A stretch of 38,478 nt of DNA from an uncultured Eggerthellaceae bacterium (lineage in GTDB: Bacteria > Actinomycetota > Coriobacteriia > Coriobacteriales > Eggerthellaceae), in the NCBI GenBank assembly GCA_947565185.1, contig CANODU010000009.1, positions 1 through 38,478 on the forward strand. The letters run 5' to 3'. Position numbers and translations under genes: made by a program. Positions 11,609 to 14,903 of this stretch are shown one piece after another (position 1 is the first letter of the stretch; every line of letters starts with the position of its first letter). The notes under the pieces are model-generated. The model was given only the letters and a program-made list of their open reading frames with translations, ran no database searches and was not told where the DNA came from.

Positions 11609-11637
11609 ATTCTATGCGAATCCGAGGACTTCTTCAA
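11609..11637 (-). promoter_or_regulatory. strong promoter of tRNA-Thr
   Basis: On the minus strand TTGAAG (11637-11632), a 17-bp spacer and TAGAAT (11614-11609). The -10 ends 19 nt before the tRNA. The -35 overlaps the stop codon of the upstream DUF4130 gene. Confidence 0.75.
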
Positions 11638-12515
11638 TAGGCCTTGAGGCCAGGTGCGCCATCTTGCATCTCCGTCAGGTTCTTCCAGAAGCGCTTCGGC
11701 ATGAAACGCTGCCTCAGCTCTGGGTTGTACCGTGCCGTAACGGAGAGCGACCGGTAGAACGCCTTCCAAGCGTCCTGCATGAGGACCTCAGAGGCGCACA
11801 CCTCAGGCAACGTCAAGGCATCGTCTTCAGCATCCACCAAAAAGCGTTGCTTCCCATCCCAGATCCCCGCCATGCCATGCACCTCATCGTAGAGGATGAA
11901 CGGCTGCACGCTGAAGCGCTCGATGAAGTGTCCCAGCACTAACGGCACGACCGCATCCTTCGGGTTGATGCGCGCGAACCATACCTCACGCTCCTCATCC
12001 TTCAGGTGCTGAAAGCGCGCGAACTGACGGATCTTCTCGCATTCGTTGTCAACGGAGCGAACGGCGTCATGGAAGGGCTTCACGCGCGGATGCGCGATGT
12101 CATTCACCGGTGCCATCTGAGAGCGCTGACATGACCTCCCTGAACAGGCAGCGCTGTACGGACAGCTTGCGCAGTCACGCCTCTTGGCACCGTCATAGGC
12201 AAAGCGGATGAAGCGGTAGAGCACCGTACCCGCGTCTGGCCTCCCCGAAAGCGTGCACTTCATCACCTGACGTTGCGTGAAAGCGCCAAGCCTTTGGCGG
12301 ATGCCTGCTGAGACGCGCGCAGCGTGAGCTGGGTGAGTGGGTACCTCAACGGCTCTCTGCAAGAGCTGCGGCTGATAGCTTGTAGCGCTCACCACCTCAG
12401 CAGGATCCTCATGGCGCGCATAGGCTTCGAAGATGCACGTGAGCATGCCCTCAGGGCTCCCGTCATGGATATAGGCTACCTCGTCGAAGATGTCTGTAGC
12501 ACTATGAGTGCTCAA
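11634..12515 (-). CDS. DUF4130/UDG-like DNA metabolism protein (TIGR03915-type)
   Basis: This 293-residue protein belongs to the family nearly always encoded beside the radical SAM gene directly upstream and thought to act in DNA repair or modification. The start is a TTG at 12515 whose last two bases are shared with the upstream TGA stop (TTGA overlap), with a GAGG site just before it. The N-terminal half (to about 110) and the C-terminal DUF4130 half (about 150-285, with ARINPKDAVVPLVLGHF) match the family layout. Between them is a four-cysteine group C115-x2-C118-x5-C124-x4-C129, which could hold a zinc or an Fe-S cluster as in UDG family 4/5 enzymes. I cannot say from memory whether relatives share it. 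Expression is probably SOS-driven together with its partner. Confidence 0.88.
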   Translation of the reverse strand: MSTHSATDIFDEVAYIHDGSPEGMLTCIFEAYARHEDPAEVVSATSYQPQLLQRAVEVPTHPAHAARVSAGIRQRLGAFTQRQVMKCTLSGRPDAGTVLYRFIRFAYDGAKRRDCASCPYSAACSGRSCQRSQMAPVNDIAHPRVKPFHDAVRSVDNECEKIRQFARFQHLKDEEREVWFARINPKDAVVPLVLGHFIERFSVQPFILYDEVHGMAGIWDGKQRFLVDAEDDALTLPEVCASEVLMQDAWKAFYRSLSVTARYNPELRQRFMPKRFWKNLTEMQDGAPGLKAY

Positions 12516-13918
12516 AGCACCTCACCTGCCTTCGAACGAAGCTCAGGTGCGGGATGCGTCTGAGGCGCCGGTGCGGATAGGAGCGGTGAGCCGGCTGCAT
12601 CCACTCCATCGAAGAGGCTCATCTGTCCCTCTATGGTCTTGTCTGCGCGCCTGCCATGGGCACCGCCATCTATGGGAGATGCGAGACGGGCATGCAGAGA
12701 CTCCTGGTCAAAGGAAACGCCCTGTCCCATATATCGCCCCTTGCAGGTGATGAAGTATCGTGCTCGCTTGTAGGCAACGCCCAGCTTGCGCAGCTCCGCT
12801 TCACCCAACGTGGTCTGACGGCGCGCCCGCATGATCAGCTTCGCCCCGCGCACGCCAATGCCCGGCACGCGCAGAAGCATCTCATACGCGCACGTGTTCA
12901 CATCCACCGGGAACAGATCCAGATTGTTCAGCGCCCAATTCGCCTTCGGGTCAACATCCGTGCACAGATGGGGATGCGCCGCATCGATGATCTCAGACAC
13001 ATCGAATCCGTAGAAGCGCAACAGCCAGTCAGCCTGGTAGAGCCGATGCTCCCTATCGAGCGGCACGTGATCGGTCTGCGGTAGGCGCGCGTCGCGCACC
13101 ACTGGCAGATATGCGCTGAAGAAGACGCGCTTGAGCCGCATGGTGCGATAGAGCGACGCTGCAAGCCCCAAGATCTGCCAGTCCGTCTCAGGTGTTGCAC
13201 CGATGATCATCTGCGTGGATTGCCCTGCGGGAGCGAAGGCGCGAGCTGCACGGCGCGGGCGTCCCTTCGACAGATAGACCGTGGTGCGCTTGCGCATGAG
13301 AGCGCGCAATTCGACGCTTTCGCTGATGGATTCGCTGATGAGCTTCATAGGCGCGATCACGCTCTGCCGCGTCTTGTCCGGGCAGAGGAGCGCAAGGCTC
13401 TCGGAGCTGGGAAGCTCCAGATTCACCGAAAGGCGATCGGCCAGAAGCCCCAGCTGCTCTATGAGCTCAAGGGCGGCTCCCGGTACCGCCTTCGCATGGA
13501 TGTAGCCGCGAAAGCCGTACTCCTCACGCAGGATGCGCAGCGTAGCGGTCATGAGCTCAGTGGTGGTGTCTGCATCCTTGATGACGCCCGAGCTCAAGAA
13601 GAGGCCTTCGATGTAGTTGCGTCGGTAGAACCCGATGGTGAGGTCAGCAAGCTCGCGCGGAGTGAAGCTCGTGCGCACCACATCTGAGTTGCTCTTGCGA
13701 TTCACGCAATAGGCGCAATCGTAGACGCAGACGTTGGTCATGAGCACCTTCAAGAGAGAGATGCAGCGACCATCTTCCGTGAAGCTATGGCAGCACCCCG
13801 CATTCGACGCCGCACCCAGCTGGCCGCGCTTACCTGAACGCTGGACGCCGGAAGACGTGCAGGCGACATCGTACTTGGCAGCATCGCTCAAGATCTCCAG
13901 CTTCTGTACGATATCCAT
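12512..13918 (-). CDS. putative DNA modification/repair radical SAM protein (TIGR03916-type)
   Basis: The 468-residue product has the radical SAM motif CVYDCAYC (C-x3-C-x2-C) near residue 66 and a C-terminal helix-hairpin-helix (LRVPGIGVRGAKLIMRARR) of the DNA-binding type. This matches the family that travels with the DUF4130/UDG-like partner, which overlaps its stop codon here. The ATG at 13918 gives the standard N-terminus (MDIVQKLEILSDAAKYDV). The frame stays open to 14083 but would run back into the next gene. The ribosome-binding site is weak (TTTGGGG). Two LexA-like boxes lie just upstream, so the operon is probably part of the SOS regulon. The substrate is unknown; a DNA base lesion or modification is the reasonable guess. 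Confidence 0.92.
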   Translation of the reverse strand: MDIVQKLEILSDAAKYDVACTSSGVQRSGKRGQLGAASNAGCCHSFTEDGRCISLLKVLMTNVCVYDCAYCVNRKSNSDVVRTSFTPRELADLTIGFYRRNYIEGLFLSSGVIKDADTTTELMTATLRILREEYGFRGYIHAKAVPGAALELIEQLGLLADRLSVNLELPSSESLALLCPDKTRQSVIAPMKLISESISESVELRALMRKRTTVYLSKGRPRRAARAFAPAGQSTQMIIGATPETDWQILGLAASLYRTMRLKRVFFSAYLPVVRDARLPQTDHVPLDREHRLYQADWLLRFYGFDVSEIIDAAHPHLCTDVDPKANWALNNLDLFPVDVNTCAYEMLLRVPGIGVRGAKLIMRARRQTTLGEAELRKLGVAYKRARYFITCKGRYMGQGVSFDQESLHARLASPIDGGAHGRRADKTIEGQMSLFDGVDAAGSPLLSAPAPQTHPAPELRSKAGEVL

Positions 13919-13925
13919 GCAAACC

Positions 13926-13955
13926 CCAAACATTTGTTTGTGCGAATGTTTGTTC
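13926..13955. promoter_or_regulatory. two tandem LexA-like SOS boxes
   Basis: Box 1, CGAATGTTTGTTCG (13942-13955), differs by one base from the Gram-positive/actinobacterial LexA consensus CGAAC-N4-GTTCG. Box 2, CAAACATTTGTTTG (13926-13939), is a symmetric variant of the same palindrome. Centres are 16 bp apart, so both are on nearly the same DNA face. On the minus strand a TATCAT -10-like hexamer (13962-13957) abuts box 1, so LexA binding would block the promoter of the radical SAM operon. Confidence 0.7.
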
Positions 13956-14000
13956 GCATGATAGCGCACTTCAACGCCGCTGGGCAGAAGATATGCAGCC

Positions 14001-14903
14001 TCATCGAAAGTCGGGGATGAAGCTCTCCTTGGCAGGGTCACCTTCTTGCCAGTAGTAGTCCTCGTAGCCCAAAGCGTCCGCACAGTCTAAGACCGCTTCA
14101 TACTCCTCTGGCGTCACCGCACGCGCAAGCTCTGGGAACTCATCCAAAAGCGGCGCACCGACGGGGATCTGCGGAGTATATTGGCTCATGATGGAGAGCT
14201 TCACAGCATTCCCGAACGTGCGCCAGAGCACCTCCAGCGCCTTGCAGGATTCACGTACATGACCAGGGAGCACCAGATGGCGAACGACCACACCACGCAT
14301 AAGACGCGGGGCCCCATCCACCTCATCGAAAGCGCACTCCCCCACTTGGCACACCATCTCCTCTAGCGCCGCAAGGGCAACCTGAGGATAATCCGGAGCC
14401 TGCGAGAGCGCCCCCGCCAAAGCGGCATCAGCGTATTTGAAGTCTGTCAGATAGGCATCCACATACCCCGCATCATCTTGCAGCGCCTGCACGGATTCAT
14501 AGCCGCTCGTGTTCCAGATGATGGGAAGACCAAGCCCCCGTGAGCGCGCCGCATCCAGCGCCACCCTGATCTGAGGCGCGAAATGCGTTGGGGTGACCAG
14601 GTTGATGTTCAAAGCGCCCTCTTCTTGGAGGCGCAAGAAGATATCAGCCAGATCAGATGCTGAGGCGCGCGTGCCCTGCACAGCGCGCGAGATGGCATGA
14701 TTCTGACAATAGGCGCAGCGAAGGGAGCATCCCGGAAAGAAGACCGCGCCGCTCCCAGCGCTTCCGCTGATGGGAGGCTCCTCCCATCTATGGAGCATCA
14801 CGTGCGCTACGAAGAGCTCATCTGCTGCCCCGCAGGCGCCCACCTCACCGCCATCGCGGCGAGCGCCGCATGCTCGAGGGCAGAGGATGCAACCGTCCCT
14901 CAA
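14001..14903 (-). CDS. PflX-like radical SAM protein (COG1313)
   Basis: The 300-residue product has an N-terminal cysteine segment (CILCPRACGARR, then GACG) and a radical SAM motif CSLRCAYC, as in the PflX/COG1313 group related to pyruvate-formate-lyase activating enzymes. The actual substrate of this group is not established. Later landmarks are TPTHFAPQI, YLTDFKY and the HLVLPGH and SQYTPQIPV strands typical of the family. The start overlaps the stop of the upstream dehydrogenase-like gene by 4 nt (ATGA), so the genes are co-translated. It is the last gene of the long minus-strand train that begins at malic enzyme; the SOS-controlled operon starts 82 nt further on. Confidence 0.88.
   Translation of the reverse strand: MRDGCILCPRACGARRDGGEVGACGAADELFVAHVMLHRWEEPPISGSAGSGAVFFPGCSLRCAYCQNHAISRAVQGTRASASDLADIFLRLQEEGALNINLVTPTHFAPQIRVALDAARSRGLGLPIIWNTSGYESVQALQDDAGYVDAYLTDFKYADAALAGALSQAPDYPQVALAALEEMVCQVGECAFDEVDGAPRLMRGVVVRHLVLPGHVRESCKALEVLWRTFGNAVKLSIMSQYTPQIPVGAPLLDEFPELARAVTPEEYEAVLDCADALGYEDYYWQEGDPAKESFIPDFR

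Follow-up and report, generated by a model that had tools for sequence, protein, structure and literature searches.

Two palindromes that resemble LexA operators lie directly before a radical SAM gene of the TIGR03916 family in this Eggerthellaceae genome. They raise the question of whether LexA reads them, which would bring the gene and its TIGR03915 partner into the DNA-damage (SOS) response, and of what the two proteins might do there. We took up both parts of the question by sequence and structure comparison, starting from the window, by which we mean the whole 38,478-nucleotide stretch of DNA that was analysed. The features that the argument needs are the following, by position in the window:

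13963-13958, minus strand: -10-like hexamer TATCAT, one base from box 2, seen in the sequence
13943..13956, no strand assigned: LexA box 2, a predicted operator of RAAC-N4-ATTC type, CGAATGTTTGTTCG (on the minus strand, CGAACAAACATTCG)
13927..13940, no strand assigned: LexA box 1, CAAACATTTGTTTG, a perfect palindrome and the box nearer the start codon; predicted operator
12512..13918, minus strand: TIGR03916 radical SAM protein, 468 aa, a barrel with CxxxCxxC, a helix-hairpin-helix and a disordered tail
12611..12625, minus strand: QMSLF, residues 432-436 of the radical SAM protein, within its C-terminal tail; a beta-clamp-binding motif predicted from conservation
11634..12515, minus strand: TIGR03915/DUF4130 partner, 293 aa, starting with a TTG that overlaps the stop codon of the radical SAM gene (TTGA)

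Layout of the predicted operator region

On the minus strand, TATCAT is followed after a single G by box 2, which is two bases from box 1; eight more bases lead to the ATG at 13918. The boxes are thus 8 bp (box 1) and 24 bp (box 2) 5′ of the TIGR03916 start codon, and their centres are 16 bp apart. The preliminary description of this DNA had reported two palindromes with 16-bp centres before the radical SAM gene and a -10-like hexamer at one of them. Both elements are present, the palindromes one base off the 13926-13955 given there and the hexamer beside box 2, where the single G separates TATCAT from the CGAAC of the box. From this arrangement we infer that the transcription start would fall inside box 2. 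We found no clear -35 candidate for TATCAT; TATNAT-like hexamers adjoin a box in relatives too (for example, at locus L108).

Both boxes and the hexamer fit in a gap of 82 bp, bounded on its 5′ side by a gene of the same orientation whose end is at 14001. This neighbour (14001-14903), directly upstream of the pair, encodes a second radical SAM protein that is PflA/NrdG2-like, and in a few relatives the pair likewise seems to be preceded by such a gene (sequences of L074 and L115).

The two proteins of the operon

The product of the first gene scores 592.7 bits against the TIGR03916 model (cut-off 343.5) and contains Radical_SAM and HHH_3 domains, and its closest named relatives are Eggerthellaceae proteins, for example from Adlercreutzia and Gordonibacter (67-71% identity). 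Cys64, Cys68 and Cys71 of the CxxxCxxC motif are invariant in a 35-protein alignment, and the helix-hairpin-helix motif is found in 33 of 35 TIGR03916 relatives. The structural model (pLDDT 84) is a radical SAM barrel, for which the best fold match listed is lipoyl synthase (Z 18.1, 226 residues, 3.2 Å), followed by HydE (Z 17).

The C-terminal tail carries QMSLF at a position where most relatives have QLSLF, and the bacterial beta-clamp-binding consensus is QL[S/D]LF (PMC3716654). Of 126 full-length TIGR03916 proteins, 99 have the strict clamp motif in their tails, compared with 0 of 126 when the first 390 residues are searched and 0.08% of shuffled tails. Several of the proteins outside the 99 have near forms such as QLSLW and QLRLF, and Gln432 is invariant in the alignment of 35 diverse TIGR03916 proteins. 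The motif is short and sits in the low-confidence tail of the model. A repair role of TIGR03916 in which the protein is docked on the clamp is a prediction that we regard as reasonably probable.

The second gene, on the same strand, scores 195.2 bits with TIGR03915 (cut-off 112.25) and overlaps the radical SAM gene. Because of the TTGA overlap, the two are probably translationally coupled. DUF4130 has been linked previously with radical SAM photolyases and UDG and called a predicted mutagenesis-related enzyme (PMC3765255), and the preliminary description had termed the partner UDG-like. By Pfam, however, all 35 sampled partners contain DUF4130 only and none has a UDG domain; we therefore drop the term for this lineage.

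The AlphaFold model of the DUF4130 protein (pLDDT 88) has its best fold matches mostly among DHH/DHHA1 proteins, namely PAP phosphatase, RecJ, Cdc45, NrnA and family II pyrophosphatase, with middling Z-scores. Values reached by the top matches are E 1.3e-4 for 8a8k and Z 8.0 over 191 residues at 5.5 Å, and residues 155-237 alone match family II pyrophosphatase with Z 6.8 over 81 residues at 2.8 Å. When DUF4130 was compared by hhalign with a small NrnA alignment, the probability was 0.1, no better than that of an unrelated control. We take the DHH/DHHA1 (RecJ/Cdc45) fold as a lead from the model and do not claim membership of DHH for DUF4130. Neither spore photoproduct lyase nor a UDG fold is among the fold matches listed for either protein, and a sequence search of solved structures returned no relative of either one beyond weak, chance-level matches.

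These observations bear on a different reading of the operon, in which the pair would serve base excision as a uracil-DNA-glycosylase system. Precedent favours it, as the published SOS operon of other phyla joins the UDG-family protein COG1573 to COG4277 (PMC8565304), but the partner in the window is, like every sampled one, a DUF4130 protein whose model resembles DHH/DHHA1 proteins. A glycosylase part, if needed, must be a different protein, and we consider a base-excision system of this kind unlikely.

The LexA-type motif in the genome and in relatives

A 14-bp palindromic motif was learned unsupervised from the regions 5′ of lexA and recA, 58 in all, in other genomes of the family; the genus of the window and every radical SAM upstream region were left out of the training set. 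A first run with few, weak restarts gave an off-register palindrome; with more restarts, the best runs of this blind discovery all arrived at CGAACATATGTTCG. Scored with the learned motif, box 1 (19.7 bits) is the top 14-mer of the 38-kb window and box 2 (11.9 bits), one half-site of which deviates from the lexA/recA consensus, ranks second. In 10 Mb of Markov-simulated sequence, neither the box-1 score nor a pair of boxes of equal strength within 40 bp was found at all, and the box-2 score came up 8.6 times per Mb. Consensus counting in the window gave a total near chance and did not set the boxes apart, whether CGAAYNNNNRTTCG was allowed one mismatch or CGAACNNNNGTTCG two; box 2 is the sole exact CGAAYNNNNRTTCG match there.

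We searched the 1.8-Mb draft genome, of which the window is contig 9, by sequence pattern. Only four exact matches to CRAACANNTGTTYG exist in this genome: (i) before recA, (ii) before uvrA, (iii) box 1 and (iv) inside a long repeat-rich coding region. The recA box, CAAACATTTGTTCG, is 64 bp 5′ of recA, just ahead of a -10, and the uvrA box lies about 60 bp upstream of the uvrA start. Three weaker boxes with one mismatch or more precede lexA (CATACATTTGTTTG, AGAACTTATGTACG and CGAACATAGGTACA); these boxes, of the form GAAC-N4-GTAC, are weaker than expected. Exact CGAAYN4RTTCG sites number 15 in the genome, most of them below 8 bits by the learned motif. Profile searches confirmed a full-length LexA (TIGR00498, 227 bits, residues 6-211 of 211) as well as RecA (549 bits) and UvrA.

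Several other sites came to light in this genus. Its lexA boxes have drifted to GAAC-N4-GTAC (L106:1347-1425), the rest of the family having GAAC-N4-GTTC, and lexA at this locus is divergent from nrdR, with the box region common to both. In both genomes of the genus, a strong LexA-type site, AGAACAAATGTTCG (19.9 bits), lies across the D-alanine--D-alanine ligase start codon (L210:488-501 on contig C46 of the same genome as the window, and G030:C8:56428-56441). This site may place a cell-wall gene under SOS control or may be a coincidence of the coding sequence. LexA-type sites are also found, again in both genomes, near the start of one uncharacterised protein of about 550 aa that has no NCBIfam match (L215:2047-2060, at C20:20446 of the window's genome, and L219:1882-1895, at C1:254881 of G030), which makes its gene a candidate for a new SOS gene.

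Conservation before the TIGR03916 gene extends well beyond the window. The second genome of the genus has retained both boxes at the same spacing of 16 bp (CGAACATATATTCG and AGAACAAATGTTTG). Across the family, a LexA-type site of at least 8 bits is present in 66 of 68 radical SAM upstream regions, compared with 11 of 276 internal windows and 2.7% of shuffled upstream regions, and the commonest spacing between boxes is 16 bp (39 cases). A wider scan covered 75 loci in named genomes, most of which belong to Clostridia and some to Bacilli or to other Coriobacteriia. Sites of at least 8 bits were found there in 60 of 75 upstream regions versus 13 of 299 internal controls, and sites of at least 14 bits in 43 of 75 versus 0 of 299. 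Distant Actinomycetota carry the TIGR03916 gene without such boxes; LexA-type control is therefore not universal.

The fate of the motif where lexA itself has changed points to LexA as its reader. A recA box was found in 30 of 30 upstream regions of the main family sample. No recA site of at least 8 bits is present in the complete genome G008, which has no lexA, in its lexA-less genus mate G054, or in G014 and G037, which have the two lowest-scoring LexA proteins. In G015, G018 and G057, all of them incomplete drafts in which no lexA was hit, recA boxes persist, which is most simply explained by assembly gaps at lexA. Absence of the recA box accompanies a lost or divergent lexA, an association that is strong but small in number, and the SOS wiring of G008, G054, G014 and G037 may differ. 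These four genomes are also without TIGR03916.

The TIGR03916/TIGR03915 operon is thus very probably under LexA (SOS) control, as the preliminary description had proposed. At the level of sequence, the prediction draws on sites at recA and uvrA and weaker ones at lexA in the same genome, and on the boxes kept before the operon by relatives within the family and in the wider scan. The preliminary description had named a lack of such palindromes ahead of recA/lexA in this genome as an observation that would count against it; the search showed that they are there.

A dedicated repressor other than LexA, with a similar motif, might instead bind the boxes, their likeness to LexA operators being secondary. 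The half-site of box 2 speaks for such a protein: the RAAC-N4-ATTC form, RAACANNYATTC, stands before the radical SAM gene in 49 of 68 family genomes and was not seen at recA or lexA, where the arms are GTTC or GTTT, and a second regulator may read box 2. Yet box 1 agrees with the operators at recA and uvrA in this genome, a motif built from lexA and recA alone still finds nearly all radical SAM upstream regions of the family, genomes with a missing or divergent lexA have lost the recA motif, and the operon contains no regulator gene, which together make a dedicated repressor very unlikely. Chance palindromes without a regulatory role in an AT-rich intergenic stretch might be suspected, given that mismatch-tolerant counting shows no excess in the window and that promoters of GC-rich genomes are AT-richer, but the first and second rank of the boxes, the lack of any such pair in simulated sequence and above all the recurrence of the sites in relatives refute this reading, to which we assign practically no weight.

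Predicted mechanism and relation to known systems

Under LexA control, the operon would work as follows. In undamaged cells, LexA on box 2 would cover the likely transcription start, and LexA on box 1, 16 bp further downstream or roughly one and a half turns of the helix, would sit between the promoter and the ATG, so that occupation of both boxes would keep the TIGR03916-TIGR03915 operon off. Damaged DNA would lead to RecA filaments and these to self-cleavage of LexA, upon which the operon would be expressed alongside recA, uvrA and lexA. The TIGR03916 product is probably a radical SAM enzyme that acts on DNA, which it would contact through its helix-hairpin-helix. Docked on the beta sliding clamp via the C-terminal QLSLF-type motif, it would act at replication forks or repair patches with its DUF4130 partner. 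Its chemistry there might be the reversal of lesions or the modification of bases.

Taken as a whole, an SOS-induced, clamp-tethered radical SAM protein together with a DUF4130 protein of RecJ/Cdc45 fold could constitute a fork-associated pathway of DNA repair or base modification in Coriobacteriia and Clostridia. We put this forward tentatively and with some doubt; if true, free-radical chemistry would be brought to DNA by the replication clamp. The prediction would assign the enzyme pair to the DNA-damage response of gut anaerobes, and the clamp motif, being conserved, offers a direct handle on the site of enzyme action. The annotation "putative DNA repair radical SAM protein" can accordingly be turned into testable claims, namely that the protein is damage-induced, LexA-bound, DnaN-bound and fork-active on DNA. 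Within the full-text literature, whose coverage leaves subscription journals outside, we found no LexA regulon study for Coriobacteria or Eggerthella and no report joining a radical SAM or TIGR03916 protein to a clamp motif.

SOS control of such a pair is not itself new, and we dropped it as a claim of novelty, as it has been published for other phyla: an SOS-regulated two-gene operon of COG1573 (UDG) and COG4277 is described in Bacteroidetes (PMC8565304), and that paper, with its references 7 and 65, gives the same SOS link for Verrucomicrobia and Alphaproteobacteria. What is added here is its predicted occurrence in Eggerthellaceae and Clostridia with CGAAC-type boxes, the partner without UDG and the clamp motif. 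COG4277 we take to be TIGR03916, the helix-hairpin-helix radical SAM family, and with that identity the likeness between the COG1573-COG4277 operon and the present one is LexA-type control of an operon that includes this family. The differences lie in the phylum and the LexA motif, which here is of the CGAAC-N4-GTTCG type, in the partner, here DUF4130 without a UDG domain, and in the boxes, here in tandem and 16 bp apart.

The Gram-positive LexA operator (CGAAC-N4-GTTCG; B. subtilis, Actinobacteria) is the same 14-bp palindrome that was recovered blindly from lexA and recA of the family. The sites described here depart from it: A/T stands at the outer G/C positions of box 1 (CAAAC...GTTTG), one arm of box 2 reads ATTCG, and an arm of the genome's own lexA boxes reads GTAC.

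In several species, radical SAM proteins of the SplB/COG1533 type have been tied to DNA repair and the SOS response (PMC8565304, PMC3765255). TIGR03916 shares with these spore photoproduct lyase-like proteins the link between radical SAM and DNA repair, but is a separate family, with a helix-hairpin-helix and a clamp motif. The predicted QLSLF/QMSLF motif in its C-terminal tail, finally, is of the kind known from the beta-sliding-clamp clients UmuC, Pol II and Pol IV (consensus QL[S/D]LF), although TIGR03916, in contrast to these, is not a polymerase.
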